64,000 bases of DNA from positions 186,001-250,000 of the forward strand of contig NZ_NQKX01000003.1 in NCBI RefSeq assembly GCF_002252635.1, written 5' to 3'. Origin of the DNA: Synechococcus sp. MW101C3. GTDB lineage: Bacteria; Cyanobacteriota; Cyanobacteriia; PCC-6307; Cyanobiaceae. Every line of letters starts with the position of its first letter. Position 1 is the stretch's first letter. The translations under genes and the position numbers were made by a program. This document shows, in pieces, positions 321 through 41,642 of the stretch. The notes beneath the pieces were generated by a model. It was given only the letters and a program-made list of their open reading frames with translations. It was not told where the DNA came from and did not search any database.

Positions 321-833
321 CTACAGCTGCCTGGATGAATGGTCTTGCCATACCGTTTCATACTGGCATAGCTGCGTAAACTCAGACTTCTTGCCATCAA
401 AAGAGTCGTAGAGGGCTCGATGCCTGGGAAGGCCGTACTCATCAGAACGCTTCTCATAGGTACGAACCCATTGGATCAGGTTGTCCAAGTTCTCATCTTG
501 CTCCTTTCGGGAACGAAACTTGTCCGGCTCCCAAGGTCTCGAGCGGCAGTTGGCCACACATACATCTACCCCAGGATTCAGGAAGATCAGTTCATCGCAG
601 TAGACCAATATAGGCTCAATAATGTCCGCATAGCAGCCTTCGATGATCCAGCTGGAATGCCGTAAAATCCAACACCTTACATCTTCGATACTATCTTGAA
701 GTGGCCGTCTTTCAGTGCCGCCGAGGAACGCCACCTCATCCAGCGATAGTCGAGCGGCTGGTCGCTTCGCAAGCAACAGCCTCGACAAGGTAGTCTTCCC
801 TGCTCCAGCGTTTCCCAGAAGGATCACTTTCAT
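321..833 (-). CDS. P-loop NTPase, adenylate-kinase-like fold
   Basis: A 170-residue protein opens with a Walker A motif (GNAGAGKTT, residues 7-15) after one beta strand. The strand-rich core has a WIIEGCYADI segment typical of small kinase-like AAA proteins related to adenylate or shikimate kinases and DNA-topology-modulation proteins. The substrate cannot be told. The ATG overlaps the stop of the preceding antitoxin relic (ATGA) and lies just after GTTAGCGCC, which resembles an integron core site. It is therefore probably the last cassette gene of a minus-strand array. No attC is visible after its stop, so its own recombination site may be lost. The product is presumably cytosolic. Confidence 0.75.
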   Translation of the reverse strand: MKVILLGNAGAGKTTLSRLLLAKRPAARLSLDEVAFLGGTERRPLQDSIEDVRCWILRHSSWIIEGCYADIIEPILVYCDELIFLNPGVDVCVANCRSRPWEPDKFRSRKEQDENLDNLIQWVRTYEKRSDEYGLPRHRALYDSFDGKKSEFTQLCQYETVWQDHSSRQL

Positions 834-1204
834 GGCGCTAACGCTCCATCGGGAGAACGATTGCCTTCACCTGGCCGCAGTGATCTCGGGCGTCGGCAAA
901 GAGTGATGTGGAGGCGGGCGGGTGAGTGGCATTGTTTAACAGCCGTCTCTGCTTCAACAGCAGGACTGGCATGCAGTTGAAGCCCGAGTGCCGAACCAAC
1001 CTTCAAGACAGTTCCACGTTCGGGATTACCGCTAGAGGAGAGCGCCGTATAGAGACTTTCGCGACCCAGTCCAGCTTCCCTTGCCATCTGTGTCATGCCT
1101 TTGGCACGAGCACTATCACCTAGAGAGGCTTTGCAATAGGCAGCCATGACTTCACAAATGCTGAGATGATTGGCCAGATTCCAGGCAGTGGCTGCGGTCT
1201 TCAT
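830..1204 (-). pseudogene. Decayed HI1420-type antitoxin copy
   Basis: The translation aligns along its length with the intact antitoxin at 40959-41270. Shared blocks are VMAAY, SARAKGMTQMAREAGL (IARAKGMTQIARETGL in the intact copy), RESLYTALS and VLKVGSALGL. About 16 codons between MAAY and LGD are missing, and the helix-turn-helix end is altered. After the conserved domain the frame runs through the attC arms to a stop at 830-832, so its last ~40 residues are recombination-site sequence. No toxin gene remains upstream. This looks like a solitary cassette relic left after loss of its toxin. Confidence 0.75.
851..940 (-). mobile_element. attC-like site G (integron cassette recombination site)
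   Basis: The plus strand has AACGATTGCCTTCACCTG near 856-873; the reverse complement of 915-940 reads GTTAAACAATGCCACTCACC. The arms pair with small bulges, leaving an unpaired centre of roughly 40 nt. A second core-like GTTAGCG (minus strand, 842-836) lies 9 nt beyond the inner end, directly before the ATG of the P-loop gene. The boundary may therefore be a chimera of two sites. The arms belong to the same family as the sites at 32714-32802 and 41643-41745. Confidence 0.6.
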
Positions 1205-1279
1205 CTGGGGCACAACCTCCCAGGGGCAGCATGGCCTCCAGGCCAAGGGCCCGGTGCTCCGCGCGGCTGAAAACGGTGT

Positions 1280-3102: not shown

Positions 3103-3195
3103 CTTGAACGTGCCCCTGATTGGCCGGGAAGGAGCATACGGGGGCGTCAGCAGAGAGTTGGTGGTGGCCTGACCACTCAAGGGGGCCTGTTCGAA
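3103..3195 (-). mobile_element. attC-like site F
   Basis: Plus-strand left arm: TTGAACGTGCCCCTGATTGG. The reverse complement of the right arm begins TTCGAACAGGCCCCCTTGAG. The arms pair with bulges across about 25 bp. The site is 93 bp and resembles the site at 40814-40906 along its whole length, including the loop segment AGCAGAGAGTTGGTGGTGGCC against AGCAGAGAGTTTGTGGTGGCC. No intact cassette gene precedes it on the minus strand; the interval 3196-3361 encodes at most a doubtful short peptide. Confidence 0.7.
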
Positions 3196-3361: not shown

Positions 3362-6133
3362 TCACCTCGCCAGGGGCGCCGCATCGCCGATCACGATCAA
3401 CGGGGCCCAGACAAAGGGGTGCAGGCCATCCGGATCGCGCCGCAGCAGCGCCAGCTTTGCCTGCCGCATCGCTTCGGCCTTGTCCATCCCTGCCTTGAGG
3501 TTCCCGTAGAACGCCTTGGTGATCTGGGCGCTCTCCGCATCCACCGCGCTCCACAGGCTCGCCACCACTGCTCTGGCGCCGGCCCGTTCCCATACGTAGG
3601 CCAGGCCGCTCAGCCCCACGTCGTTGTCGCTGGTGATCTGAGCCGTCTGGCAAGCCCCCAGCACCAGCAGCTCGGTGTTCGACAGACCCAGCTGGGCCGC
3701 GTCGGCGATCGGGTATTGCTGGCTGTTGGCGAACAGCAGGGTGTTCGCCTTCATCCCCAGATCCGGGCAGCCCGTTGCCACGAAGCAGCCGTGGGTGCCG
3801 AGGTGCAGGATCGGATAGCGGCTCGCCTGCTGCTGAAACCGCTCCAGCGTCGCCTGTCCGCGGCGCAGATCACGGCTGCCTGGATAAGCACCCACCAGAT
3901 AGTCAGCCTCCGCTTCCGTACCCGGCAGCTCCTTGGCGGTGGGGGTGGGATTGGCCAGCACCAGGGCCCGCTGAGCGCTGCCGCCACCAGCGGGCTGGGC
4001 GGCTGGGGCGCTGTTGCGGCTCAGCCGTGTCAGGTAGTGGATCGGGTACTTCTCCAACAGGTACTGCTTCGTGCGGCCGTCGTAGAGCGTTTCCAGAGGG
4101 ATCTCCCGAAGCTTGCCGGTGGCGATCACCGCCAGCCGACTTCCCGACGGCAGCAGCCCCCGGTCCTCCAGGGGTCGGATCAACAGGTCGTACAGCTGCT
4201 GGCTCCGCTCCAGATAGGATTCCGCCTTCTCCAACTGCCGCCTGTAGGTCTCCACCAGTGCAGGGAAATCCTGCGGTAGGGGCACCGTCACCACCTGCAG
4301 ATCAGTGCGACTCAGCGCAAACAACGCCATAGTGTCGGCCCGTTTGGGTACGCCGGTGAGCGGCGCCGGCTGAATCACCACCGTGCCCGCCGGGATTCCC
4401 GCCTGCAGCCGCTGCAGATCCGCCGGCCGGGTTTCCAGCAACTCGGCAATCTCCGGGTACCGCCCGATCAAATCCTCCGCAATGAGGAATTGTGACGCCT
4501 CCTGTTCCACCAGTTGCTGCATCATCCACTGATTCGGCTCCCGCTCCAACCGCTGCCGCTTCACCAGAAGCTCCACCTGCCGCAGCTGCCACCCTTCAAG
4601 CGCCCGCTGCGCCTCAGGATTGCTCACCCGGGCCTCGATCAGCCGGCTGTAATCGGCCAGATCAGCTGTGGCGAAGAGATTGACCCAGGTGAAGGCTTTC
4701 GCTGCCATCTTCTTCTCAATCAACAGCTCCACCAAGGAGGCGGCTGCGCCTTGGCTCTGGCCAATGAAGCTCTGCCGATTGCTGCGTTGAAGGCCACGCC
4801 TGATCTCCAATTGGATCGCCAGCCCCTTTTCCAGGCTCTCAATAGCTAGATTGGGCTGCTGGCGATCCCTCTGCAAAATTGCCAGATTGATGAGAGTGAT
4901 GGCCTCACCTAGTGAGTCCTTCACTTCTCGCAAAATCACCATCGTTAACTTGTAGGCTGTAAGCGCCTGATCAAAATCGCCAAGCCCGGCAGAGATCGTG
5001 GCCATGTTGCCGAGAGTTGCTGCCTCTGATCTGCGGTCACCTATCTTGCGATTGATGACAAGCGCTTGCTGGTAGGTCTTCAACGCCGCTTGAGGATTGC
5101 CCTGAGCGCTGTAAACGTGGGCGATATTATTAAGAATGGCTGCATCTACGTCGGGGTCCTTCATCTTTTGCGGCATGTCCGCTGCCCGCTGGAGGGTATT
5201 CAGCGCCCTATCCAGGTCTTTTTGATCGCTATAGATCTTTCCGATATTGTTGAGAATGACAGCCTCTAGCCTGCTGTCGCCCCAATCCTTGGCCATCGAA
5301 AGCGCCTGGTAAAAATAGACAAGAGCCATCATTGATGAGCCTAGCTGGCCATACACATCACCGATGTTATTGACCACCTTTCGGGCTGACTCGTGGTCAT
5401 CCGTCTTGCGCAGTATCTTCAATGCTTTTTCGTAGTTCTCCAAGGCCTTCCCCAAATCACCTTGACTTCTATAGACCAAGGCTATGTTGTTGGTGGTGAC
5501 TCCTTCTCCGACAAGATCATTTTCCTGTTGACGGATTAACAGTGCCTGTTTGTAGATCTTGAGCGCTTCGTCCATATTGCCGCGAGTGCTGACTAAAAAA
5601 CCTATATCATTGAGGACAAGACCCTCTCTTTTGCGATTGTTCTCCTTGCGCATGATTTTCAGGGCTTCTTCGTAGGCGGAAAGAGCCTTCTCGTATTCAT
5701 TCAAGGAGGTATAGGCAGATCCTATGTCATGGAGTACATTTCCCACTCCCTCGGGCAAATCAAGGCTGCGATAGATTAAGAGTGCTTGCTGGTAGGACTT
5801 TAGCGCCTCTGCGAGATTACCAAGATCTTTGTAAATCCATCCCATGTATCTGTGAATACCTCCTTCTAGCTTGTAAATCCATCCCATGGGTCCGTGAATG
5901 CCTCCTTCTAGCTTGCGTTCAATCAATTCTCGTGCAATTCTCAGGGCATTCGTGTAGTTGATCAGAGCCGCCTCTCTCTCACTTTTCTCCCTCTGTCGAT
6001 TGGCCAGTTGAACCACGTCCACAAGACGTTTTGGATTCGATACCTCCGCCGCCATCACCGCCGGCACCACCAGCCCCCCCACCGGCAGCAGGCCCAGGCT
6101 GAGGGCCAGTCCAGTGGCCAGCCAGCGACCCAT
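3362..6133 (-). CDS. Exported TPR-CHAT domain protein
   Basis: A 923-residue protein. Residues 1-29 form a signal peptide (GLALSLGLLPVGG, then AVMAAE). About ten TPR units cover residues 40-440, a linker follows, and a C-terminal CHAT domain (caspase-like, clan CD) covers about 640-920. The catalytic dyad is visible as His781 in HLGTHG and Cys828 in VLGACQTA. CHAT proteases are activated by partners recognised through their repeats; the substrate here is unknown. The signal peptide points to export, unlike cytosolic CHAT defence proteases. The gene lies 19 bp after a secreted-protein gene on the same strand, probably an operon. A 42-bp tandem duplication near the N-terminus repeats 14 residues. 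Confidence 0.9.
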   Translation of the reverse strand: MGRWLATGLALSLGLLPVGGLVVPAVMAAEVSNPKRLVDVVQLANRQREKSEREAALINYTNALRIARELIERKLEGGIHGPMGWIYKLEGGIHRYMGWIYKDLGNLAEALKSYQQALLIYRSLDLPEGVGNVLHDIGSAYTSLNEYEKALSAYEEALKIMRKENNRKREGLVLNDIGFLVSTRGNMDEALKIYKQALLIRQQENDLVGEGVTTNNIALVYRSQGDLGKALENYEKALKILRKTDDHESARKVVNNIGDVYGQLGSSMMALVYFYQALSMAKDWGDSRLEAVILNNIGKIYSDQKDLDRALNTLQRAADMPQKMKDPDVDAAILNNIAHVYSAQGNPQAALKTYQQALVINRKIGDRRSEAATLGNMATISAGLGDFDQALTAYKLTMVILREVKDSLGEAITLINLAILQRDRQQPNLAIESLEKGLAIQLEIRRGLQRSNRQSFIGQSQGAAASLVELLIEKKMAAKAFTWVNLFATADLADYSRLIEARVSNPEAQRALEGWQLRQVELLVKRQRLEREPNQWMMQQLVEQEASQFLIAEDLIGRYPEIAELLETRPADLQRLQAGIPAGTVVIQPAPLTGVPKRADTMALFALSRTDLQVVTVPLPQDFPALVETYRRQLEKAESYLERSQQLYDLLIRPLEDRGLLPSGSRLAVIATGKLREIPLETLYDGRTKQYLLEKYPIHYLTRLSRNSAPAAQPAGGGSAQRALVLANPTPTAKELPGTEAEADYLVGAYPGSRDLRRGQATLERFQQQASRYPILHLGTHGCFVATGCPDLGMKANTLLFANSQQYPIADAAQLGLSNTELLVLGACQTAQITSDNDVGLSGLAYVWERAGARAVVASLWSAVDAESAQITKAFYGNLKAGMDKAEAMRQAKLALLRRDPDGLHPFVWAPLIVIGDAAPLAR
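5831..5914 (-). repeat. 42-bp tandem duplication inside the CHAT gene
   Basis: Positions 5831-5872 and 5873-5914 are two adjacent 42-nt units with about four mismatches. They encode KLEGGIHGPMGWIY and KLEGGIHRYMGWIY in tandem at the start of the TPR array. The unit is a multiple of three, so the frame is kept. It is shorter than a TPR (34 residues), so it changes the spacing of the first repeat. Confidence 0.9.
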
Positions 6134-6152
6134 CAGCTCAATCTGCTCCGCT

Positions 6153-6695
6153 TCATCGAGACCCTCCTGGGGCGCAGGCTTTGTAGGCCAAGTTCACCAA
6201 GCCGCCTGGAGCAAAGCGCATGGAATCAACCACGAGGGTGCGGAGGCTCCCGACCTGGCGCAAGTCCTTCCGCACAAGGTCCTGCAAAGCGTCGGGCTTC
6301 AGGGCAAGGGTGGAACCATCGGATTGGATCGCGAGGGCCGCGGAGGCCAGCCGCACCTCCGGTTGTGGAAGGCAATCCTTCAGGGGCTCTCCGCGCATTT
6401 CAGGATTGCGATCCTCCCTCGGCTTCACCGCCCCCTGAAAGGTGATGCTGGCCACCTGGGCCAGGGGCACCGTTCGCACACCCCCCTTCGTGAAGACCAC
6501 ATCCGTGGGTCCGACAGCGATCAGCCGCACCCCCGAATAGGATCCGCCTTTGGCCAGCCCGCGTATGGTGACGATCGGCGGCAGCTGAAGGCGCACCGGC
6601 TCTGCGGCCATGGCAGAAAGCTGGTGGGAGACGACAGAAAGAAGAGCAGTCGCAGCCGTAGCGATGGCTACGAGACATTTTCGACTTCTGCTAAG
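6153..6695 (-). CDS. Secreted protein of unknown function, partner of CHAT gene
   Basis: From the ATG at 6695 the protein has 180 residues and a clear signal peptide (KCLVAIATAATALLSVV, then SAMAAEP). The frame stays open to 6791, but that extension would put charged residues before the signal peptide. The mature part has a small beta-rich module (TDVVFTKGGVRTVPLAQVASITF) and a C-terminal region with two Cys. I recognise no family. It is the first gene of a two-gene minus-strand unit with the CHAT protease (19-bp gap), and both products appear to be exported. It may be a periplasmic cofactor of that protease; this is inference. Confidence 0.7.
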   Translation of the reverse strand, partial: LSRSRKCLVAIATAATALLSVVSHQLSAMAAEPVRLQLPPIVTIRGLAKGGSYSGVRLIAVGPTDVVFTKGGVRTVPLAQVASITFQGAVKPREDRNPEMRGEPLKDCLPQPEVRLASAALAIQSDGSTLALKPDALQDLVRKDLRQVGSLRTLVVDSMRFAPGGLVNLAYKACAPGGSR

Positions 6696-6808
6696 CATGG
6701 ATCCGCCAACTAGCATGGCCGACTGGAAAGAGCTTAAGGGCAGGCGACTGTGGGCCCGCCAACTCCACGAATCGTCATACGCCCCTCTCACCCAGCAAGA
6801 GTCTTCCC

Positions 6809-7663
6809 ATGGCCAATGAGGCAGGCAACGAGAAGCTTCCCTTCCTGGGTGGATTCGCCAGCATCCTCAGTCTGCTGGGGATCACCCTGTTCTTCTCTGG
6901 CTGGATCTATCGCTGGGCCTACTTCGCCTACTTCAATCTGGACGTCAATGCGCAGTCCTATCCCGCCCAGTCGTTCCTGATCGTTCCGATTCAGGTCTTT
7001 GTCGGCAGTGTCGCTAATTTCTTTAAAACCCTGATTGTCCTGTCGGCGCTGCCGCTGCTGATCGTCGGCACCCTTTGGTTGCTGCACCGGCTGCCGGCCC
7101 TCCTGGCGATGGCGATCCGCCGGCTGCCCTGGATCCGCTCCCTGCGGCCAATAGCGCGGCAGGCCTCAGGCCCGCAACCGGCGGTCAGGCGCTTTGGGGC
7201 CTCCCTGCTCGATGAGCTGGTGGTCGTCGGCTGGGTGCTGGTCCTGCTGTTCTGGCTGTCCCAGCACCAGGGGCAGGTCGATGCCCGCCGGGATGCCCTG
7301 GAGAGCAGCTCCACCCTCCCGGTGGTCACCTTGGTCCTGCCGCAGGCGGAGGGAGTTCTGGGTCAGGATCTGCGCTACCTCGACGACTCCACTGAGGCGA
7401 TTCCCGATCCACCGCTGGCGAACAACGTGTTCATCGGTGACCGGGTCCTCGCCCGCCAGATCCGCGACTCCAGCCTTTCCGACCCCGACAGTCAGCATGT
7501 GTGGCGGCTTCTGGCCAACGAAACCCTCGGCTGGCTCTACCTGATCCGCACGTTGCCCGACACCTCCGAACCCAGCGAACGACCGCTGGTTCTTGCGATC
7601 CCGAATGCCAAGCAGGGCCAGTCGTTGATCCTCAGCCCGGCAACACCGGAGATCAGCCCCTGA
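6809..7663 (+). CDS. Membrane protein with C-terminal soluble domain
   Basis: A 284-residue protein with hydrophobic helices at about residues 13-36, 50-92 (probably two passes) and 133-150, followed by a soluble domain of about 130 residues. I see no catalytic motif or known family. The ATG at 6809 is preceded by AGAGTCTTCCC rather than a strong ribosome site. It is transcribed divergently from the secreted-protein/CHAT unit, 113 bp from that gene's start, so the two may share a control region. Confidence 0.7.
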   Translation: MANEAGNEKLPFLGGFASILSLLGITLFFSGWIYRWAYFAYFNLDVNAQSYPAQSFLIVPIQVFVGSVANFFKTLIVLSALPLLIVGTLWLLHRLPALLAMAIRRLPWIRSLRPIARQASGPQPAVRRFGASLLDELVVVGWVLVLLFWLSQHQGQVDARRDALESSSTLPVVTLVLPQAEGVLGQDLRYLDDSTEAIPDPPLANNVFIGDRVLARQIRDSSLSDPDSQHVWRLLANETLGWLYLIRTLPDTSEPSERPLVLAIPNAKQGQSLILSPATPEISP

Positions 7664-7836
7664 TCACCCCTCCTTGCTCCGCAGCCTTCGAACGCCTCCA
7701 CTCAGCAGCGGGTATAAGTCAAAGAGTTCAGCCGCTCTTGGGTGCAACTCATTCGTGCCCCCTTCTGCTGAAGTTGATTGTTGGCTTGCCTTCCCAGAGT
7801 GGCAGAGAGTTGAGGCAATGGCTCCTGGACTTTGCT

Positions 7837-9279
7837 TCACTTGACTTCTGTCAAGCGTGGCAGCGTCCATGTTCCCTTCAAGACTGGATCCTTAGGACCA
7901 TACAAACGCGCCACGAAGAAAAAGGGACCAGCTGGCGCAGGCAGCCAATTCGAGACTTTGTCCGTTCCTGGATTCTCGCTCTGGATATAGATCTCCAGGG
8001 ATCCATCAGTTCCCAGCTTCAGGCCTGATGTGCGATCACCGATCGAATAGCGTTGAATAGGATTCTCCACAAGCAGGCGTTCCGGCAACGTGTACATCGT
8101 CACCGACCAGAACTCCGTCACCGGTGGCAGCTGGCCCGGTTCGAATCGCAGCACCCATCGCTTGCGCCCATCAAGCACTTGGCCGTCGGGCCCGGTCTGC
8201 TGGGTGGCATAGAAGGCCTCTTCACTGCTGTTGCCATAAATCCCCAGCATCGCTCCCATCGAGCGGAACGTGAGGTAATCAGACCCCAGTTGCTGTCTGC
8301 TGCCGAAGAATCCCTGGGAGCTGGTCTGTTGTTGGGCCTTGGCCTTGAGCTCCTGGCTGGCCTCGGCCACCCCTTCCTCCAGGGCGGTGCGGAGCTTCGG
8401 ATCCAGCCGGGCCGGATCAAAGGGCAGGCCGGGGCCGATGCCGATGCGGGCGAACCGGGCCCGCATCTCCCGCTCCGATGGCACGGCGGGCATGAACGGC
8501 AACAGGGCGTTGAGGTAGGTGATGAAGCCGATCCCCTCGGCCTTGGAGGCGTTCCAGGCGGGCCAGGCCACCGCTGGGGCGGGCGGTGGCGCCGGTTGGC
8601 CTGTGAAGCGCGACAGGGGCGTGAGCACGTATTGGGCCTGGATCGCCTTCAGTGCTGGGATGTCATCGGGCCCGTTCAACTGGGTGCGGGTGAGGGTGCC
8701 GACGAAGTCGGTTTCGGCGCGGAACACCTTGGTGATGCCCTTCGGCACCGTGCCCTTCCAGTGGGGACCGGCGAACAGATAGGTGCCGGCCCCGCGGCCG
8801 TTGGAACGCACGCCGGTGTAGGCGAAGTTGTGGGTGTAGAGATCGAACCACTGGTTGACGTAGTAGCGGGGTGCCGGCACTGCGGGCAGCGACAGCACGA
8901 TCGGCTCGGTCCGCAGATCCAGCCAGGCCCAGGAGTAGGGCGTGTCGTTGTTGGGGGTGACGATGTCCTTGTCGGCCGGGGTGGCGGAGCGGCTGTAGTG
9001 CCGGAAGCGGTCGAAGCCACCCACGTAGCCCGGGAACGCCTTGTTCTGGGTCTGGTTCCAGAGGGTCTGGTAGCCCTGCAGGGGGGCATAGGCGTAGAGC
9101 CAGGCCTCTTTGGCGATGGCGCGGGCTTCTGCGGGGCTGGGGGCTGGGGCCTGGCTCGCTGAGCTGGAAACTTGTGCCGAAGCCGGTGTCGCGGCCAGGG
9201 AACCCAGGGGAGTCAGCGGCAGAGCGGCGATGAGGGCGGCGATCAAGGCGACCGCTGGTCGGCTGGGGGTCGGGACCAT
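7837..9279 (-). CDS. DUF1254/DUF1214 secreted protein (copy 1)
   Basis: A 480-residue protein with a signal peptide (ALIAALIAALPLTPLGSLA, then ATPASA). The N-terminal half is DUF1254 (AYAPLQGYQTLWNQ, TPNNDTPYSWAWLDLR, YYVNQWFDLYTHNFAYTG). The C-terminal half is DUF1214 (TEFWSVTMYTLPERLLVENP, IYIQSENP, FFFVARLYGP). These proteins occur in many bacteria; their chemistry is not settled. The gene lies 56 bp downstream of a second DUF1254 gene on the same strand, so the two may be cotranscribed. The ATG at 9279 starts directly before the signal peptide. Confidence 0.88.
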   Translation of the reverse strand: MVPTPSRPAVALIAALIAALPLTPLGSLAATPASAQVSSSASQAPAPSPAEARAIAKEAWLYAYAPLQGYQTLWNQTQNKAFPGYVGGFDRFRHYSRSATPADKDIVTPNNDTPYSWAWLDLRTEPIVLSLPAVPAPRYYVNQWFDLYTHNFAYTGVRSNGRGAGTYLFAGPHWKGTVPKGITKVFRAETDFVGTLTRTQLNGPDDIPALKAIQAQYVLTPLSRFTGQPAPPPAPAVAWPAWNASKAEGIGFITYLNALLPFMPAVPSEREMRARFARIGIGPGLPFDPARLDPKLRTALEEGVAEASQELKAKAQQQTSSQGFFGSRQQLGSDYLTFRSMGAMLGIYGNSSEEAFYATQQTGPDGQVLDGRKRWVLRFEPGQLPPVTEFWSVTMYTLPERLLVENPIQRYSIGDRTSGLKLGTDGSLEIYIQSENPGTDKVSNWLPAPAGPFFFVARLYGPKDPVLKGTWTLPRLTEVK

Positions 9280-9335
9280 CGTGTTGGTGGGGAACGCTGT
9301 GGGTACGGAGGGCGGGTGTCAGGCGAAGGGTTGCC

Positions 9336-10814
9336 TCAGGGCTTGAGCGCTTCGATGTCGTTCAGCTGCCAGGCCTTGCTGAAGTAGGCCTCGGTGGGGC
9401 CGTAGAAGCGGAAGTAGGCGAACCAGCCCTTGCCCGGGGTGGTCTTGATCCAGTTGGCGGCGCCGGCCGGCCGTACCGGGCCAAAGGACACATCCAACGA
9501 GCCATCGGTGTTGGTGACAAGATCCGGCTTGCGGGAGCTGAGGTCGGCGGCACCCTGGTCGGTGATCAGCGGGCCACGGCTGAGGTTGTCGTACAGGGTG
9601 ATCGACCAGAACTGCTTCACCGGCGCGCCAGCCGGCACGCGCATCCGGTAGGTGCGGCCGCCATCAAGCCAACGTCCTCCCTTGTCTTTGGAGGCCTCCA
9701 GGTATACCTGGCCAAAGCCCACGATCCGCCCCTGCATGCCTGCTGACATGCCGATCGCCTCGTAGAACCAGGAACTGCGCTCGTCGATCTGCACGCGCCG
9801 TTTGTCCGGGGTTTCCTGATCAAGGTCGAACAACACGGCGTACTCCCATTGCTTGCCGGGGTACACCGTTGCTCCGGGGATTCGCTTGTCGTAGGCGATG
9901 GTGCGGGCCATCAGATCGCCCACCTGGGCGGCCTCCGTGAGCACCTTGGCCTGGCGGGCATCCGGTTGGAAGGGCTGGCCAGGGGTGATCCCCAGAGGAG
10001 CGAGCATCCCGAACAGCATGCGGTCGCCGGGGGCCACCGGCTCGTTGGCATAGAGCTCGCTCAGCAGGCGCCAGTAGTTCAGGTCGGCGGGCTGGGCCGA
10101 CTGCCAGGGGCGACCAGCCACCGGCACATAGGCGTTCGTGGGCGGGTTATCCCGCTGGCTCCAGCCGTAGAGCCGGTGGCGGCGCACGGTGGCTTCGGCC
10201 ACGGCCTTGTCGGGATCAAGGCCTCGGGTGGCGAACCAGATCTGATTGCTTGGGGAGCGGACGATGAGGTAGCCCGGGGCCACCGGCTCGGGACTGCCGG
10301 GGGGAAGGATCAGAAACTTGCCACCGGCACCCTTGTCGGGTCCCGTCTGGCCCATGTCGGTGATCGGCTGTTGCCAGATGTCCAGCACCCCGCCGGCGGT
10401 GAGCCCGGCGGGCACCTCGATCACCAATGGTCCCTGCTTGGCAAGGTCCCAGAAGCTGAAGGCGTAGAGGGTGGTGATGTTGGGGGTGAGCATCCCCGCC
10501 TTGTCCTTCAGGGTCTGGTAGAGCACCACATCGCCGTTGCGGGCGCCGAAGGTTTTGGCCTGGGCGTCGTAGAGCGCCTTGAAACCGACGGCCGGCAGGG
10601 CCCAGAGATAGGCCTGGGTGGCGCGCTGGAAGTCGAGCTCGTCGTAGAGCCTGGCAGCGGTGGCCTTGCTGGGGTAGCCATTCTCCAGTTGAAGAGCCCC
10701 AAACCTTGTCTGTCGGACATCAGCTGCTGCAGGCTGCTTGGCTTGCACGCCACTGAAGAAGCTGATACTGGCCAGGGAGGCGATCAGCGACTTCCGAAAG
10801 AGGTTGAGCTTCAC
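9336..10814 (-). CDS. DUF1254/DUF1214 secreted protein (copy 2)
   Basis: A 492-residue protein with an N-terminal signal (SLIASLASISFFSGVQA-KQ). DUF1254 spans about residues 40-170 (RATQAYLWALPAVGFKALY, TPNITTLYAFSFWDL). DUF1214 is at the C-terminus (RVPAGAPVKQFWSITLYDN, FAYFRFYGPTEAYF). The start is GTG. It is a diverged paralogue of the gene at 7837-9279, with only the motif frame conserved, so the duplication is old or the two were acquired separately. It is the first chromosomal gene after the cupin cassette and its attC-like site. Confidence 0.88.
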   Translation of the reverse strand: MKLNLFRKSLIASLASISFFSGVQAKQPAAADVRQTRFGALQLENGYPSKATAARLYDELDFQRATQAYLWALPAVGFKALYDAQAKTFGARNGDVVLYQTLKDKAGMLTPNITTLYAFSFWDLAKQGPLVIEVPAGLTAGGVLDIWQQPITDMGQTGPDKGAGGKFLILPPGSPEPVAPGYLIVRSPSNQIWFATRGLDPDKAVAEATVRRHRLYGWSQRDNPPTNAYVPVAGRPWQSAQPADLNYWRLLSELYANEPVAPGDRMLFGMLAPLGITPGQPFQPDARQAKVLTEAAQVGDLMARTIAYDKRIPGATVYPGKQWEYAVLFDLDQETPDKRRVQIDERSSWFYEAIGMSAGMQGRIVGFGQVYLEASKDKGGRWLDGGRTYRMRVPAGAPVKQFWSITLYDNLSRGPLITDQGAADLSSRKPDLVTNTDGSLDVSFGPVRPAGAANWIKTTPGKGWFAYFRFYGPTEAYFSKAWQLNDIEALKP

Positions 10815-10861
10815 GGAGTTGAGTCAGTGATCAACTTTAACTGCTCGTTCAGCTACGGCCC

Positions 10862-10946
10862 AGCCAACGCTCAAGATCAGTGGCGGGCAGGAGCCAAATG
10901 CGCTGACAAGGCGTCTCTGGTTTCGGCGGCTGGATCTTGGTGCTAG
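10862..10946 (-). mobile_element. attC-like site H, after the cupin cassette
   Basis: Plus-strand left arm AACGCTCAAGATCAGTGGCG; reverse complement of the right arm AGCACCAAGATCCAGCCGCC. They pair over about 17 bp with one extrahelical C (AAGATC-AG against AAGATCCAG). It begins 20 bp after the cupin stop, as expected for a cassette. The outer core (GCCTAAC-like) is decayed to CTAGCAC. Its arms share the CTCAAGATCAG / CTCCAGATCAG pattern with the site at 31700-31787. It marks the distal edge of the integrase-proximal array. Confidence 0.6.
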
Positions 10947-10965
10947 GTATCTCGCTCTTGATGAA

Positions 10966-11325
10966 CTACACCGGCTCGAAGCCCGATGCTGAAGGAGAGA
11001 CGACGGAAACAAAGACAAGTGGTTCTTGCCCGGTGTTAAGAACACCGTGGACTTCTCGGCGATGGGCTACAAGCACATCTCCCTGAGCGATGGCAATCGA
11101 CTCCCCCTTAGACCCAAGGCTGTACTCGCCGCAACCTGAAAGGATGGTCCATGTATCTTGGCCATCAGGATGCACATGAGCCGAGATATGCTGGCCAGGC
11201 TTGATATGCCAAGCAACGACCGTTGCGTCAGCCGACTCGGTGATGACTGAGCGAATGGGCTCACCGTCCGCTGGTTGTAGAAAGTCTGTGACCTTAAACA
11301 AGCGCTTCGGGCTCGTTATGGACAC
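10966..11325 (-). CDS. Small cupin-domain protein (cassette gene)
   Basis: A 119-residue single-domain cupin. The first metal-binding motif is HISAHVHPDGQDTW (G-x5-H-x-H type) and the second is around HRREVHGVLN, with the usual GDVLVAH turn between them. Such proteins bind a metal and a small ligand; this one has no second domain to suggest a substrate. The start is GTG at 11325. It lies between a remnant attC after the GNAT gene and the attC-like site at 10862-10946, and so reads as the second cassette of the integron at 10862-12400. Confidence 0.85.
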   Translation of the reverse strand: MSITSPKRLFKVTDFLQPADGEPIRSVITESADATVVAWHIKPGQHISAHVHPDGQDTWTILSGCGEYSLGSKGESIAIAQGDVLVAHRREVHGVLNTGQEPLVFVSVVSPSASGFEPV

Positions 11326-11360
11326 GATGGAATGGTGTTTGTTGGGTGGATTTTAGCAAG

Positions 11361-11385
11361 AACGGCGGGCCAGCCGTTGTTAAGC
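11361..11385 (-). mobile_element. Shrunken attC remnant after the GNAT gene
   Basis: On the minus strand GCTTAAC (fits the R'' core RYYYAAC; 11385-11379) overlaps the GNAT stop codon. It is followed by a perfect 6-bp stem AACGGC/GCCGTT (11378-11361). A full attC would have longer arms and a closing GTTRRRY core. I read this as an attC with most of its arms deleted. A simple transcription terminator is the alternative, but there is no T tract. Confidence 0.45.
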
Positions 11386-11871
11386 TGCACCGGCGAGAGA
11401 TCGTGAAAAAATCACCTTCGAGTCCCCTTCAGCATAGAAATCGGGGATACGTCCTCGCACTTCATACCCGCGCTTCAGGTAAAAGTTTCGAGCTCGCGCC
11501 AACGCTTCCTGGTCACTAGTCTCAATAACAATCACGCGCGCACCCAATGCTGCCGCATCTCGCTCGATGTTAGAAAGAATGGCTTGGCCGACACCGCCGC
11601 CATGATGACCGGGTCTTACGCCAATCCACCACACGTTCCACACCCGCTCGGAATAGGCGTCTGGAGAATAGTACGACCACCCAATGACTGGGCCGTCTTG
11701 AAACTCGCGACAAGCCACAGCAGTATGCCCCTCGGGCAGCTCCCCAGCAGCAAGGGAATCCAGAACTCCACCCAAAAGGGCTTCCGCATCCTCGGCAGTG
11801 AATAGTCCGGTGCTCACGGCTAGTCCAAGCAATACCTCTCTCTCATGCGCTTGAATGGGGCCGATGATCAC
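11380..11871 (-). CDS. GNAT-family N-acetyltransferase (first cassette)
   Basis: A 163-residue single-domain GNAT protein. The acetyl-CoA loop is visible as VRPGHHGGGVGQAIL (residues ~83-97, motif Q/R-x-x-G-x-G/A), followed by the alpha3 helix, GARVIVIETSD and ARNFYLKRGYEVRGR (motif B). The acceptor substrate is not predictable; GNATs are common integron cargo. The GTG start at 11871 lies 26 bp after a perfect core site GTTAGGC (minus strand, 11904-11898), and its stop overlaps the R'' core of a remnant attC. It is therefore the first cassette after the integrase relic. Confidence 0.87.
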   Translation of the reverse strand: MIIGPIQAHEREVLLGLAVSTGLFTAEDAEALLGGVLDSLAAGELPEGHTAVACREFQDGPVIGWSYYSPDAYSERVWNVWWIGVRPGHHGGGVGQAILSNIERDAAALGARVIVIETSDQEALARARNFYLKRGYEVRGRIPDFYAEGDSKVIFSRSLAGAA

Positions 11872-11897
11872 TTGATTGCCTCCGTTGTGGTCTTGCC

Positions 11898-11960
11898 GCC
11901 TAACGCTGATTGGGCGTACCCGGTGAAAACGCGCTGCGCCTACCCAGTGAAGCCTAAGCG
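11898..11960 (-). mobile_element. Candidate attI site
   Basis: Between the integrase relic and the first cassette lies a core site GTTAGGC (minus strand, 11904-11898; fits GTTRRRY). Two 17-bp direct repeats (TTCACCGGGTACGCCCA, minus strand 11927-11911, and TTCACTGGGTAGGCGCA, minus strand 11951-11935) match at 14 of 17 positions and are 24 bp apart. attI sites carry a single core plus integrase-binding direct repeats, which fits. A degenerate attC cannot be excluded. If it is attI, the integrase points the same way as its cassettes, the arrangement known as an inverted integrase. Confidence 0.45.
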
Positions 11961-12071
11961 AGGTAGGGATTGAAGCCAGAGCAACACAAACCCAGGGCAG
12001 GCCAAAGATCCCAGGCTCATCCTGCCAGGGGCCAAGGTTTTCGGCGGACCCGTCTAAGACAGTTCGACGCG

Positions 12072-12400
12072 TTACAGAAGGTCGGCAGGACTGCTGACGC
12101 CCAGGGGCCCGCGGTTCAGCACATGCGTGTAGATCATGGTTGTCTGCACATCCTTATTCCCCAGCAATTCCTGGATCGGCGAATGTCCTGGCCCCACTCC
12201 ACCGGAGCGTTGGGCTCCTTCCTCCCCAGCGCGTGGGGATGCGGCATCGGGCCAGCACAGCCCCTCCAGCACCCAATGTGGGTGAGGAACGCCTTCACCT
12301 CGGCGCTGGCCAGGGTGTTCACTCATGCCCACCGACTTCCTACGCCTTCGCCTTCGTCGACTGACCAACCGGATGGCACGGATGATCCCCGCAGGCATTT
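12072..12400 (-). pseudogene. intI: Integron integrase (IntI) relic
   Basis: The C-terminal segment [34 protein letters not shown] (plus strand about 12072-12175) is diagnostic of integron integrases; the Tyr of MIYTHVLN is the recombinase nucleophile. Just before it, DIR lies in another frame, so one base is missing between DIR and IQELL. A second block, [12 protein letters not shown] (12272-12310), matches the N-terminal core-binding domain and is joined almost directly to the C-terminal piece. The middle of the protein, including the catalytic Arg-Lys-His-Arg region, is deleted. The gene is certainly inactive. It has the same orientation as the GNAT and cupin cassettes that follow. Confidence 0.85.
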
Positions 12401-12526
12401 ACCGTCTTAATCGTCCATGCTGCATACATAAGCAAATCAGAAGTTTCAGTATTTCTTTATCAGGACATTCCGTTCACATGATGCTGAAATTCAGCACCAT
12501 ATGACAAGTCTTGCTGATGTTCCCTG

Positions 12527-13258
12527 TTGCGTGTTCAGCCCCTGATCCAAATCATCGACCACGAGCCTCACGTTCTTGAGGTGCTGGCCCCGTTACTGGA
12601 GCAGGTGGGCTGGCGCGTTCTTCACGCCGATGATGGACATCACGGCCAGGCCATGGCCTTGCAGCACCAGCCCCATCTGATCGTGCTCGACCTGCTGCTG
12701 CCCAAGCTGGATGGCCTCTCGGTGCTGCAGCGCCTGCGGCGCGATCGGCGCACCGCGCGGGTGCCGGTGATGGTGCTCACGGCGCTGGCCAGCAAGGAAG
12801 ACAGGCTCAAGGCCTTCAACTGCGGCGCCGACGACTACGTCCTCAAGCCCTTCGAGGTGGAGGAGGTGTTCGTGCGCATCCGATCCCTGCTGCGCCACCA
12901 GCTGGAAACGCCGCTGGCCTTGGCCACCCCGGAGATCCTGTCCTACGGGCCGCTCAGGCTCTGTCCTGAACAGCTGGAGGCGCTCTGGTTCGATCAGGTT
13001 GTTTGCCTTACCCGCAAGGAGTTTGAGCTGCTGCATTGCCTGTTGCAGCGCCACGGCCAGGCTGTGTCATGGGGGGTGATGCTCAAGGAGGTGTGGGGCT
13101 ACTCCCCTGGCGATGACATCGAGTGCATCCGCACCCATATCCGCCACCTCAGAACCAAGATCGAGCCGGATCCCGGCCGACCCCAGTTTCTGAAGACGAT
13201 CTATGGCGTGGGCTACTGCCTGGATCTTCCCCATCAACAGCGCCAAGCGATGGCCTGA
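12527..13258 (+). CDS. OmpR-type response regulator, orphan
   Basis: A 243-residue two-domain regulator. The receiver domain has Asp11, phosphoacceptor Asp55 (LIVLDLLLPK), Thr85 (VLTA) and Lys107 (VLKPF). A winged-helix DNA-binding domain follows (CLTRKEFELLHCLLQRHG, then IRTHIRHLRTKIEPD and TIYGVGYCL). An in-frame stop at 12515-12517 forces a non-ATG start; TTG at 12527 is the best choice. No histidine kinase gene is adjacent, so the partner is elsewhere. The intI relic ends its 5' side about 130 bp upstream on the other strand. Confidence 0.92.
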   Translation: MRVQPLIQIIDHEPHVLEVLAPLLEQVGWRVLHADDGHHGQAMALQHQPHLIVLDLLLPKLDGLSVLQRLRRDRRTARVPVMVLTALASKEDRLKAFNCGADDYVLKPFEVEEVFVRIRSLLRHQLETPLALATPEILSYGPLRLCPEQLEALWFDQVVCLTRKEFELLHCLLQRHGQAVSWGVMLKEVWGYSPGDDIECIRTHIRHLRTKIEPDPGRPQFLKTIYGVGYCLDLPHQQRQAMA

Positions 13259-13292
13259 GGCTCAGGGCGCTCCACTGCCGAAGGAGCGAGGT

Positions 13293-13628
13293 TCAGAGAA
13301 AGCTGCCGTTGTGTGTGGGCGCGGCCTCAGGGGTGTACGGGCTGAAGCGCATGTGGCTTCTGTTCAGCACGCCAGGCTGCACAACAGGGGCCTCGGCAGG
13401 GGCGGCAGCGGGCTTCTGCTGGTGGAGCACTTCCTCCAGCAGGAAGGCACAGAGGTTGGACATGGAACGCCCTTCCTCTTCCGAACGGTTCAGGAGTGTT
13501 TGAAACACCTGATAGCTGATGGTGATGGAGATGCGGCGTGGTTGACGTTGCATGATCCGAAGTCGCTCGCTTGTGGTAAGGGTTGGATTCGTTGCTTCTT
13601 GGCTGGAATGAGGAGTGATGGAAGTCAT
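13293..13628 (-). CDS. CopG-like ribbon-helix-helix protein
   Basis: From the ATG at 13628 the protein has about 111 residues (the frame stays open to 13661). The central segment RRISITISYQVFQTLLNRSEEEGRSMSNLCAFLLEEVL is a typical ribbon-helix-helix: a basic beta strand (RISITIS), helix 1, then the SMSNLCAFLLEE helix. The flanks are Pro/Ala-rich and low in complexity. RHH proteins are DNA-binding dimers, often small autoregulators or antitoxins. No toxin gene is next to it. It is convergent with the response regulator gene, with a gap of about 34 bp. Confidence 0.7.
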   Translation of the reverse strand: MTSITPHSSQEATNPTLTTSERLRIMQRQPRRISITISYQVFQTLLNRSEEEGRSMSNLCAFLLEEVLHQQKPAAAPAEAPVVQPGVLNRSHMRFSPYTPEAAPTHNGSFL

Positions 13629-31331: not shown

Positions 31332-31705
31332 TGACACCACCCCCGGGTGCCGGGCCAACGAAACAAGACAGTTTCCTAAGCCACCAGGCAAGCCCGGAAG
31401 CCACTGGCCAGCATGAAACCCCTTTCCAGCACTGGCCTGTGGCCGCCCGAAGCAAGACGCTGACGCTGGCCGGGGTGCCGGAGAACATCCTGGTGCTGGT
31501 GCCCGACCTGCACCGGGAATTCCATGGCTGGAAGAGCGGCGCCTGCAGCCCTAAAGACGTGCTGGTGTTCTTCGAAGCCGCGCGGGGGGATCTGTTCGAT
31601 CCGGTGAACTCGCGCGACATGAAACGGCTACGGGCACTGACCCACCGGCTGCAGCGGTTTGAGAGTGAGCGGGAGGGGCAGAAGGTGCGGTATCACCGGG
31701 GCTAA
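31331..31705 (+). CDS. Unknown protein truncated or ended at an attC site
   Basis: A 124-residue protein coupled to the DUF1275 gene by TAATG. The N-terminal third is low in complexity; the rest (TLTLAGVPENILVLVPDLHR, DVLVFFEAARGDLFDPVNSR, MKRLRALTHRLQRFESERE) looks like a folded small domain. I recognise no family. Its stop codon (TAA, 31703-31705) lies inside the outer core of the attC-like site at 31700-31787. The cassette array may therefore have been inserted into the 3' end of this gene and supplied a new stop. Confidence 0.6.
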   Translation: MTPPPGAGPTKQDSFLSHQASPEATGQHETPFQHWPVAARSKTLTLAGVPENILVLVPDLHREFHGWKSGACSPKDVLVFFEAARGDLFDPVNSRDMKRLRALTHRLQRFESEREGQKVRYHRG

Positions 31706-31787
31706 CGCTCCAGATCAGAAGCGGGCTGGGTTGCACCAGTATGACAAGGAAGCTTTTGCTCCCGTCTTCTGTATCTGGATGTTATAC
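31700..31787 (-). mobile_element. attC-like site C, end of the 31.7-34.6 kb array
   Basis: Plus-strand left arm GCTAACGCTCCAGATCAGAA-GCGGG; reverse complement of the right arm GTATAACATCCAGATACAGA-AGACGGG. They pair over about 20 bp with extrahelical A residues on one arm (AGATaCAGAAGaCGGG). The minus-strand cores are GTATAAC (R'') and GTTAGCC (R'). It begins 15 bp past the stop of the HEPN-candidate gene. It is the distal boundary of a three-cassette array. Confidence 0.8.
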
Positions 31788-31801
31788 GACCCCTGACTAA
31801 G

Positions 31802-32698
31802 CTAGTCATCCATAGACCTCCTAAGAAAGGCCGAGTAAGCATGTATAACTTCCTTGCTTACTTCTATCGCAGATCCTATAGAACTCTTAACTCTTTCATG
31901 TGCTTCGTCATTAAGTGTATAGTGAGCCACATCGTCTGAGTTTCTAATATTTAGAATTGGCTTTACCTTTTCCTCCCAATACCCCCCTTTTAGGCCATAC
32001 TTCTTAGAGCGGCTTTGATAGTCTCTGCGGTCGTTGGCGTTTGCTGGATCGCCAAGAAGTACAGTAATAGATTTCCATATGTGCATATATGCAGAGGTAA
32101 TCACGTAGGACTGGTGAGGGGACCCGTACGGGAGCTGAGACTGCAAAGAGTAAAGCAGCACTGCGTGCTCATGATAAAGCAAAGCCTTTGAAAGCTTTTC
32201 GTCGTCCAATCCTGAGCGATTTGCGGCTTGCAGAATTGATGTCTTTAGCTTATCGAGATCATAGAAAGTTACTCGAAGAAGTGGCAGGCTACTTGGGGTC
32301 AACTGTGAATCGACTTCTCCGTCTGGACAATCAACTTGTAAGATTTGGTACGGGAAAAGACATCCATACTCTACGCAGAGAAATCTTGATATCTCATCTA
32401 TCAATGTTACCGCCTGCCGAAGAGCGCTTTTCTTATCGCTTGCCGGAATTGAAACACGAAAGAAGTTGTCGTTCACAGACAGAACTCCAGTTCCCAGCTC
32501 ACACGTCACCGTAAGCGCATCGATTGGCTCGCGATATCTTGAGAATGCTCCGTAAGCGATTATATGACCACTTCGCATGTCAATCGCATCACTATGGCTT
32601 TCAGCGCTATTTGTTGACTTCATTACTGTCGTATCGCCGTCGGGCAGGCCAAATAGTCCGGGGTTCCCGAACTTGAAGATAATCCAGTAGTCGTTCAT
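31802..32698 (-). CDS. Cassette gene: candidate HEPN-domain protein
   Basis: A 298-residue protein, AT-richer than its surroundings. The N-terminal ~150 residues are beta-rich and unassigned. The C-terminal ~150 are helical and contain NIRNSDDVAHYTL, in which Arg252 and His259 make an R-N-x5-H arrangement like the R-x4-6-H active site of HEPN RNases. I infer a HEPN fold from this motif and the helical context; neither is proof. HEPN proteins are common in toxin and anti-phage systems. It lies between two attC-like sites, with its ATG 16 bp after the preceding core, so it is a gene cassette. Confidence 0.7.
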   Translation of the reverse strand: MNDYWIIFKFGNPGLFGLPDGDTTVMKSTNSAESHSDAIDMRSGHIIAYGAFSRYREPIDALTVTCELGTGVLSVNDNFFRVSIPASDKKSALRQAVTLIDEISRFLCVEYGCLFPYQILQVDCPDGEVDSQLTPSSLPLLRVTFYDLDKLKTSILQAANRSGLDDEKLSKALLYHEHAVLLYSLQSQLPYGSPHQSYVITSAYMHIWKSITVLLGDPANANDRRDYQSRSKKYGLKGGYWEEKVKPILNIRNSDDVAHYTLNDEAHERVKSSIGSAIEVSKEVIHAYSAFLRRSMDD

Positions 32699-32713
32699 AG
32701 ACTCAGAAAGTGC

Positions 32714-32802
32714 GTTGAACGCTTGCCATCACCTGGCCGCAACGAGACAATGCTATGGAGGGTAGCCTTGGGAGGCGGCTCAGGTGAATGGCAATGTTAG
32801 AA
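32714..32802 (-). mobile_element. attC-like site B
   Basis: Plus-strand left arm AACGCTTGCCATCACCTGGC; reverse complement of the right arm AACATTGCCATTCACCTGAG. They pair almost perfectly over 18 bp, with one extrahelical T (CCAT-CACC against CCATTCACC) and one extrahelical A. The minus-strand cores are TTCTAAC (R'') and GTTCAAC (R'). Length 89 bp. The extrahelical bases on one arm are the classic strand-selecting feature of attC sites. Confidence 0.88.
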
Positions 32803-33699
32803 GGCCGCCTGTAGTGAATATAAGTACGCATCAGGCAGCCACGACAAAGACGTAAAAAGCCAATCGCGTGTTACGGGCGAACACTTGATGGCCGCGGACA
32901 ACCATGAGGCCCCCAGGATTGAAGGATCACTCACTTCACTCCCTGTTATCAGATAATCAACGCCACTGGGAGCCTTCTTTCTGTTTGCTCGTAGCTTTAG
33001 CTTTACCTGAAGCGCACATCTACTCTTGGGGAGTAGCGTAATCCCGCACAACGATAAATCGACGCTACTGTTATTGTGGACAAAGATATCGACATCTTTA
33101 ATCATCCCTCCTCTGTAAGCCGGGACGAAGCATCCTAGTTCTTCGAATAGTTTGGCAACTAGGGTTTCGAGTTCAACACTGCTCAAGCATTCTAATGCAT
33201 GGATGACTGTACATTGGAGCGGCAACTGAACCTTCGACTTGTCGAGAATGCATTGCAATGCAGTTTTATTGCCATTATCTGAGATCTCGCGGAAAGTGCC
33301 AGATGAATAGTATCTATTTGCGTTGATACCTGCAAGAATTGCAGGAACGTCTTTGACGGGCTCACGAATTACCTCTCGAACTGGCAGAAGCTTAACGAAG
33401 CCATCGTATCCAGGTTGAACTTCTGACTTAACAAACCGGATCGGCCCAGCAGGTTCCAACACAACTACTTCTCCGCCGTATATAACTACGATAAACTTGT
33501 TTGCTGGATTCCTGCCGCATTCAAAAAACAACTGGCCTTGTTTCCTAGCTCCACCCCCTGACAAGAACTCCTCTTCATTGTCCGCAGAGCCATCAAAGTA
33601 AATGGGAATACATGGTGACCCAATCTCGCCGTTACCTGTCAGGTAGCGAGCAGCACTTCGATTGGCTGTGTCAATCTTGGCATAAATGAACTGAGTCAT
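32797..33699 (-). CDS. Cassette gene: candidate PD-(D/E)xK (Mrr-like) nuclease
   Basis: A 300-residue protein of lower GC. The C-terminal half resembles restriction-endonuclease-fold nucleases of the Mrr type: a helix with Glu176/178 (VELETLVAKLFEELGCFVPA), Asp202/204 in GGMIKDVDIFVHN, and the Q-x-K motif Gln231/Lys233 in CALQVKLK. The N-terminal ~150 residues form an unassigned domain with a beta-rich start. A nuclease that senses or cuts foreign DNA is a fair guess; the fold is inferred. The stop lies inside the R'' end of site B, and the ATG is 16 bp after the core of site A. Confidence 0.72.
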   Translation of the reverse strand: MTQFIYAKIDTANRSAARYLTGNGEIGSPCIPIYFDGSADNEEEFLSGGGARKQGQLFFECGRNPANKFIVVIYGGEVVVLEPAGPIRFVKSEVQPGYDGFVKLLPVREVIREPVKDVPAILAGINANRYYSSGTFREISDNGNKTALQCILDKSKVQLPLQCTVIHALECLSSVELETLVAKLFEELGCFVPAYRGGMIKDVDIFVHNNSSVDLSLCGITLLPKSRCALQVKLKLRANRKKAPSGVDYLITGSEVSDPSILGASWLSAAIKCSPVTRDWLFTSLSWLPDAYLYSLQAAF

Positions 33700-33715
33700 G
33701 ATGTTTTCTTGGTAC

Positions 33716-33805
33716 TTCTAACGTTGCCCCTGAGTGGCAGGCAAGAACCCGACAGCTCTGACTGGGAATCGGTGGGGGCCTGTCCACTCGAGGGGCTTGT
33801 TAGAC
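33716..33805 (-). mobile_element. attC-like site A
   Basis: Plus-strand left arm AACGTTGCCCCTGAGTGGCA; reverse complement of the right arm AACAAGCCCCTCGAGTGGAC. They pair over 18 bp with an extrahelical C (CCCCT-GAGTGG against CCCCTCGAGTGG) and an extrahelical A. The minus-strand R'' GTCTAAC fits RYYYAAC exactly; R' is GTTAGAA. Length 90 bp. Same arm family as the sites at 3103-3195 and 40814-40906. Confidence 0.88.
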
Positions 33806-34582: not shown

Positions 34583-34601
34583 GTCTAACTCTTAATTAGA
34601 C
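34583..34601 (-). mobile_element. Collapsed attC: two facing core sites without arms
   Basis: The minus strand reads GTCTAATTAAGAGTTAGAC: an R''-like GTCTAAT, five bases, then GTTAGAC, a perfect R' core (GTTRRRY). The long arms of a normal attC are absent. It lies 109 bp upstream of the first cassette gene and marks the proximal edge of the array. It may be a deletion product of an attC or an ectopic cassette insertion site. The rest of 34475-34783 holds no gene; two GGTT...AACC inverted repeats (34603-34613 and 34727-34744) are visible. Confidence 0.5.
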
Positions 34602-34783
34602 GGTTCCGCGAACCACCCCCAGCCGGTAGGTCCATTCCAGATAAGTCAACTGAGTTCACAGCGGACAGTCTCTTAAACCGTGGCACGCAAGGACACTCTA
34701 ATCAAGAACACCCACCCCAGCCGTGGTTAACGGGTCCGTGAACCACTTGTGACCACTGCTACAGCAGAGCGGAATGGCTTGAC

Positions 34784-40906: not shown

Positions 40907-40958
40907 GAGTCGCCTCTCAACTGCCCACCTCTGCGGACTTCCGCTTCTCAAGCAGCAT

Positions 40959-41569: not shown

Positions 41570-41575
41570 TTCGAC

Positions 41576-41604: not shown

Positions 41605-41642
41605 GGGCCCGGAACGCCATCCTCGAAACGAAGTCGCGATCC

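Follow-up and report, generated by a model that had tools for sequence, protein, structure and literature searches.

The window analysed here, the whole 64,000-nucleotide stretch of contig NZ_NQKX01000003.1 of Synechococcus sp. MW101C3, carries on its minus strand one dead integron (12.4-0.9 kb) and two integrase-less platforms (43.2-40.8 and 34.8-31.7 kb). The dead integron starts with the remains of an integron integrase gene (intI; 12072-12398), in which three readable pieces have kept their order while two internal segments are missing. These pieces were mapped by DNA comparison with the intI genes of nine relatives and correspond to an N-terminal piece at 12312-12279, where 31 of 34 nt match locus L049, a piece of the additional domain at about 12253-12191, and the C-terminus at 12201-12075, followed by the stop codon (12074-12072). 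The integron integrase profile TIGR02249 matches the relic with 42.3 bits (E 5.7e-11, and E 2.9e-10 in a six-frame search of the genome), whereas the XerD and XerC profiles reach only 20.8 and 18.4 bits. Thus, a Xer or phage recombinase origin, named as the alternative in a first-pass annotation of this DNA, was ruled out. That annotation had described an IntI N-terminal fragment joined to a C-terminus with its Tyr, the catalytic middle being lost, and all of this is borne out, although it overlooked the third piece. Its 16 residues (12238-12191) match positions 212-227 of a relative's IntI (L030) with 87.5% identity, and we take them to belong to the IntI additional domain, a stretch present in IntI and absent from Xer. 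The segments with the Arg, the Lys and the HxxR motif are absent from the relic, and the histidine of LLGH is replaced by Asn (LLGNKD), while the Tyr is kept; these are the residues to which we ascribe the catalytic roles. Because two internal segments are gone and the LLGH histidine has become Asn, the gene is, judged by its sequence, a pseudogene. A clean short direct repeat was not found at the deletions of this relic and, thus, their mechanism is left unclaimed. A search for a sigma-70-like promoter in 10800-12450 returned none. Beside the relic lies a response regulator (window 12424-13592) with a second copy in the genome (G000:C3:30763-31491, 85% identical in amino acids), and it is this second copy that occupies the place common to loci L083 and L084. 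The homology of the window to these two loci begins at 12424, immediately past the intI relic.

The attI of the relic integron (11898-12074, minus strand) was placed by its position after intI and contains the R box GTTAGGC (11904-11898), 170 nt past the last intI codon. This is the core proposed in the first-pass annotation, and relatives show a similar spacing: at 6 of 13 of their loci, a GTTRRRY motif is found on the intI strand 165-180 nt past the last intI codon (about 0.016 expected per locus). The site is not significant with the attI models used here, and its assignment rests on position. The two direct repeats reported at this attI are present but moderate, with 10 of 12 matches and 3% of shuffles as good; among relatives, such repeats are clear in L045, L046, L052 and L037, weak in L049 and not seen in L043, L042 and L050.

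Integrase, attI and cassettes share one strand, as in a reverse (co-directional) integron. This arrangement was seen correctly at first reading but is not unusual, as integrase and cassettes on one strand are the norm in this family. An attC covariance model gives 27 hits at 8 of 16 family intI loci (7 of 14 from relatives and 1 of 2 from the own genome), all downstream of intI and on the same strand, so that the seven relatives' loci with attC hits are all co-directional. When intI loci of cyanobacteria outside the family were scanned with flanks of up to 1.5 kb, attC hits were obtained at 3 of 16, all upstream on the opposite strand and, therefore, divergent. The classical divergent organization of intI and attC is seen at loci L007, L010 and L013, which come from non-family cyanobacteria, and both layouts therefore occur in the phylum. 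Moreover, family IntI and other cyanobacterial IntI separate with 100/100 support in a tree of 30 proteins.

The covariance model was built from nine attC sites, all from relatives and with no contribution from the own genome, and finds nine full-length attC in the window, with scores from 65 to 19 bits and all on the minus strand; matches below 13 bits, which occur on both strands, were taken as noise. A control set of 50 unrelated loci (913 kb) yielded no attC at E<=10 with default filters, under which all nine window sites are still recovered. Two pattern scans for attC in the window gave none of the sites that the covariance model did find. Comparison of the folding energies of the four single attC candidates with shuffles was uninformative for three of them (z -0.05, -0.60 and -1.02), the energy being low only for 855-940 (-2.66).

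The first genes behind the attI are a GNAT acetyltransferase gene (11380-11871; PF00583, E 1.9e-9) and a cupin gene (10966-11325; PF07883, E 1.8e-12), both on the minus strand. They had been taken for two cassettes, a proposal that has to be given up. The covariance model has no hit between them and they are separated by only a 35-nt scar (11351-11385, minus strand; GCTTAAC...GCCGTT) and, therefore, they form one fused unit. The sister species G002 contains GNAT and cupin genes with the same scar in between, its GNAT gene being cut at the 5' end. In G002, the scar starts with GCCTAAC, which is perfectly complementary to the attI core in the window, so that this element is most likely what is left of an attC by which two cassettes were fused. 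The two genes appear to be under constraint, as their dN/dS values against G002 are 0.21 for GNAT (NG86, 124 codons) and 0.17 for the cupin (NG86, 118 codons). The GNAT protein is not a recognised resistance enzyme, with 24.4 bits for the AAC(6') model against a cutoff of 265. The fused unit ends in an attC (10862-10948, minus strand; 40.8 bits, E 2.8e-9; R' GTTGGCT), so that the attC-like site announced after the cupin is confirmed by a model built from relatives alone. The homology between the window and G002 ends at the GCGTT of this attC, beyond which the sequences diverge, as expected for a cassette boundary.

The array continues on the minus strand with a large cassette (7837-10814) bearing two DUF1254/DUF1214 genes, the first of which is 86% identical in G034 and follows an attC there at a distance of about 0.87 kb. 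In G034 (L196 7186-9984), both DUF1254 genes are represented by one open frame of 932 amino acids. The attC that follows (7687-7786, minus strand; 24.7 bits) has the R'' AGCCAAC, fully complementary to the R' of the attC before it. The next cassette content (3362-7663) includes both strands, with a TPR-CHAT gene (6133-3362) and an ORF (6791-6153) on the minus strand and an ORF on the plus strand (6809-7663), and leads to an attC at 3103-3195 (minus strand; 23.6 bits) whose R'' TTCGAAC again complements the preceding R' (GTTCGAA) at every position. Finally, the remnant of an HI1420-type antidote gene (830-1246, minus strand; PF21716, E 9.8e-16) overlaps a weak attC at 940-855 (18.9 bits, E 0.0046), in which 2 of 4 free positions complement the previous R'.

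Within an array, each cassette is expected to have an R'' that pairs with the R' on its left, as these bases derive from one circle. Of the 31 neighbour pairs in the genome of MW101C3, 20 have an R'' that matches the preceding R' at every one of the four free positions; comparison of R'' with its own right-hand R' gives 5 of 31, and shuffles a mean of 2.1 and a maximum of 8 in 20000. The chain formed by the attC at 10862, 7687 and 3103 runs without a mismatch between R'' and R' and, thus, the relic array spans about 9 kb with unusually long units. Its cassettes, which end in attC with an R'' matching their own left boundary as integron cassettes do, reach down to at least 3103 and, more weakly, to 940-855. 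The non-canonical R box GTTCGAA/TTCGAAC recurs in attC of the own genome and once in G002; such boxes lie at window 7687, 3195, 41643 and 40906, at G000 C8:213010 and C4:278405, and in L189 near 1129.

A blast search with intI-plus-downstream DNA of relatives also hit the window at 34764-34719, distant from any integrase. An attI HMM, trained on the regions from intI stop to R box of nine relatives only, recovered five attI without intI in the own genome (E 5e-19 to 3e-7), each at the head of an array: two on contig C9, one at 283 kb of C4, and two in the window, at 34.8 and 43.2 kb. No IntI similarity was detected by blastx within 2 kb upstream of these five orphan attI. Their R box is complementary to the R'' of the first attC at 7 of 7 positions in four cases and at 6 of 7 in the fifth. 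A later search of the whole genome recovered six attI, with pairwise identities of 0.42-0.67. The second platform of the window consists of an orphan attI (34583-34764, minus strand; R box GTTAGAC at 34589-34583) with no intI upstream and an array (31701-33805, minus strand) with attC at 33805-33716, 32802-32714 and 31787-31701. The third platform comprises an orphan attI (43027-43195, minus strand; R box GTTAGGC) and an array (40814-41745, minus strand) with attC at 41745-41643 and 40906-40814. Between these two attC, at 41569-40959, lies a Gp49-like toxin gene, slightly under the Pfam cutoff, together with an HI1420 antidote gene, a pair resembling a toxin-antitoxin cassette. With at least two clustered attC and no integrase, the arrays at 33805-31701 (three attC) and 41745-40814 (two attC) have the properties of a CALIN; if this class is understood as lacking attI, which is our reading of its definition, they fall outside it, as attI is present at 34764-34583 and 43195-43027.

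The attC search was extended to the whole genome and gave 37 attC at E<=10 in eight groups, the 38th being the window site at 7786-7687, from the window search. Thus, the refuting outcome named at first reading, an absence of attC covariance hits, was not obtained. Seven of the eight cassette arrays are headed by attI, the attI of the window relic being counted by position, and for the array on C8 the attI model recovered none. The relic had been put forward as the explanation of the scattered attC, for which it is not sufficient because six of the seven other arrays have their own attI.

The six-frame search detected no above-cutoff IntI in the genome of MW101C3, and intI relics are found on C4, on C2 and in the window. 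The C4 gene has its ends joined, with about 0.53 kb missing relative to the G002 gene, to which it is 97% identical over the last 170 nt compared, and its deletion shows the short direct repeat GCTGTTTCTG / GCTGATGCTG (8/10). The attI linked to it has an R box complementary to the R'' of the first attC at 7 of 7 positions. At the same C4 locus, G001 and G002 have open, above-cutoff intI genes, the IntI of G001 being without 14 residues and that of G002 having a different C-terminal end of a few residues, where the contig stops. The C2 relic (G000:C2:138409-138836, L038) has several stops and a partial attI (16 bits), with no attC in the contig. Therefore, attI sites are present in this genome, and an intact integrase beside one of them, as in a complete integron, is not. 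The first-pass picture of a decayed integron holds for the IntI relic, the attI, the cassettes and the attC; what did not survive is the supposed oddity of the layout, the rarity of such integrons and the explanation of the scattered attC by this relic alone.

Four of the orphan loci are common to several species, namely C9 minus, C9 plus, C4 at 283 kb and the window at 34.8 kb. The C9 minus orphan attI occurs in three species, and those at C9 plus and C4 283 kb in two. The window 34.8 kb site is also present in G007, a member of another genus, with only the last 1.1 kb of 2.5 kb upstream in common and, thus, it may be a shared segment there and not the same place. A further pair, G032/G037 (L240/L243), was left out of the ortholog count, since no alignment was obtained over the 600 nt that precede attI (identity 0.435). 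Six pairwise comparisons could be made, with 83-96% identity over the 600 nt upstream and an alignment that extends across attI as far as the GTT; in all six, it breaks at the GTT or a few bases after. More than 1.2 kb of downstream sequence exists in three of them (C9 minus and C9 plus, both G000/G002, and window 34.8 kb/G007), where one 32-bp attC piece aligns and nothing else. The other three meet a contig end 52 nt (G001) or 126 nt (G002) after attI, and their differing bases are little informative. Since intI is absent at all shared orphan sites, its loss would most simply have preceded the parting of these lineages, with the cassettes changing later.

Above-cutoff IntI is found in 43 of 201 family genomes, and in 38 of 149 when the relatives plus the own genome are considered. 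Complete IntI genes are thus not uncommon here, contrary to the earlier remark that complete integrons are uncommon in cyanobacteria. When a further 54 genomes of the family were scanned for both IntI and attC, attC at E<=1e-6 were present in 10 of 12 IntI-bearing genomes (E<=1e-8) versus 1 of 42 others (Fisher p 2.9e-8). A survey attI model made from 13 attI, five of them the orphans of the own genome, was applied at E<=1e-4 with the own genome counted, and it detected attI in 51 of 201 family genomes, with 232 matches summed from the table. These sites occur in 49 of 56 genomes that match TIGR02249 at E<=1e-20, a threshold that can also take in other tyrosine recombinases, versus 2 of 145 others, and no match was obtained in 34 genomes of the same class outside the family. 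Inspection covered 36 attI rows, or 35 distinct sites, as one G032 site was counted under two loci. The orphans among them, defined by at least 1 kb of upstream sequence with no IntI in it, number 21 in a search that starts from attI and is blind to the rate of attI loss after intI. A scorable attC lies within 4 kb of 14 orphans, and the pairing is perfect in 9, three-of-four in 4 and one-of-four in 1, against a mean of 1.35 and a maximum of 7 in 20000 shuffles. Twenty further attI sites from G090, G083 and G255 comprise 15 without IntI upstream and 5 with C-terminal IntI remnants. At 12 of these 20 loci there are attC, whose 15 hits are all downstream of attI and on its strand. Remnants of IntI adjoin attI at 4 of 5 sites in G083 and 1 of 8 in G090, as well as at L241, L246, L236 and L197.

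G090, assembled as a single contig, has one full IntI and 11 attI matches. Four copies of a 2.47-kb unit, at least 99.88% identical, begin there at the GTT of four attI, one linked to intI and three orphan (L045, L252, L253 and L255). The unit starts with GTTGAAC on the left and finishes on the right with GTTCAAC, then a hairpin and then the next GTT, and because of these ends it is read as a cassette. One of its genes specifies a tyrosine recombinase whose best NCBIfam models are XerA, XerD and IntI, all below cutoff, and a second ORF is assumed to be an IS91-type transposase. Equipped in this way, the unit might spread by itself and, therefore, it is a weaker proof that IntI was at work. The recombinase occurs a fifth time in G090, at L254. 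The same unit, or the same left end, lies directly at attI in several genera (L046, L047, L231 and L243).

These parts and their order, the orphan attI shared by species with differing DNA after the GTT, and the partial loss of the C4 intI point to a dispersed chromosomal integron, consisting of one IntI gene, that on contig C4, and several attI at fixed places, each heading an array. The orphan attI probably began as ordinary integrons in which intI decayed and attI persisted; indeed, such an origin of the platforms is suggested by the IntI remnants of several sizes that adjoin attI. The integrase made from the remaining gene would then have inserted and removed cassettes at all platforms in trans, until the C4 intI lost about 0.53 kb. 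As this gene is broken in MW101C3, its set of platforms, with their arrays, would now be frozen. We assign a probability of about 0.78 to the reading that a single integrase acted in trans on many attI platforms and that its gene is now broken here. We infer both the trans action of IntI and the maintenance of attI by selection. Part of the orphan attI may simply be young relics, because C-terminal IntI remnants remain at 5 of the 20 further sites and at several others.

The main competitor is plain decay in place, where each array lost its intI alone and its attI was inactive afterwards, which corresponds to one of the published routes to a CALIN (route ii, PMC8618304, in the part of that text available). 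The graded IntI remnants beside attI listed above are what such decay would leave, and the window relic at 12.4 kb fits it as well. However, the shared orphan attI were already without intI and yet are followed by differing DNA right after the GTT, and the presence of the 2.47-kb unit at four different attI of G090 also speaks against decay in place, so we regard it as unlikely. A quite improbable alternative is that homologous recombination, among the platforms or with incoming DNA, swapped arrays at attI without IntI. The six attI of the own genome are alike enough to bring this exchange to mind, but its crossovers would scatter through attI and flank, whereas six of six breaks are at or near the GTT. 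The Xer profile scores of the relic might suggest a Xer or phage recombinase fragment with attC as chance hairpins, an idea refuted by the much higher IntI score, the IntI-only piece, the E-value of the attC behind the cupin and the zero hits in the control DNA, which leave it practically no probability. Returning to the trans-acting integrase, its extension to the picocyanobacteria as a whole is likely on comparative sequence grounds: these organisms would have a one-integrase, many-attI integron, with platforms at several fixed places of the chromosome, most of them lacking their own intI, that are loaded and reshuffled in trans.

Several elements of this picture are already published, as far as the available portions of the papers go: the co-directional layout, decayed intI genes, and CALIN, including the mobilisation of CALIN in trans and their relatively conserved positions in Xanthomonas. 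The Treponema integron carries intI, attI and cassettes on one strand, and its IntI clusters with one of Synechococcus sp. (PMC3607928); the co-directional layout has been termed reverse integron (PMC4909258), an inverted IntI subclade has been named and an attC model for Cyanobacteria exists (PMC8352920). The MW101C3 integron shares with the Treponema denticola type the same strand order and an attI past the 3' end of intI, and differs from it in its dead intI and in the further intI-less attI platforms elsewhere in the chromosome. CALIN are described as mobilisable in trans and, in Xanthomonas, as lying at relatively conserved positions (PMC12444791), which makes these arrays, likewise without nearby intI, the closest precedent in the sections of that report at hand; unlike CALIN, defined by attC alone, the arrays described here start with a recognisable attI. 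Nearly one third of the intI genes found in an earlier study were pseudogenes (PMC2426708), and decay is alike in both cases, while the survival of attI beyond intI seen here is not treated in the accessible part of that study. The delta-attI cassettes of mobile integrons (PMC12901181, as excerpted) also place attI-derived sequence distant from intI, but there the attI remnants are inside cassettes, whereas here attI heads the array. Outside class 1, attI is poorly described according to the available text of PMC9024848. Among the matches listed from the open-access literature, with subscription papers mostly outside, there was no report of attI-headed arrays without intI.

The sources proposed for integrase-less arrays are off-target insertion, loss of intI and rearrangement (PMC8618304, from the part available). 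A recognisable attI without intI offers a testable answer on this origin, because orphan attI common to several species are fixed points from which cassette turnover can be read. Moreover, the capacity of an integron does not follow from how many intI genes there are, as G090 with its single full IntI and 11 attI matches illustrates. If the proposed organization is true, many arrays of this family that could be called CALIN would be live docking platforms and not debris, and the traffic may be increased by a cassette that brings a tyrosine recombinase of its own.
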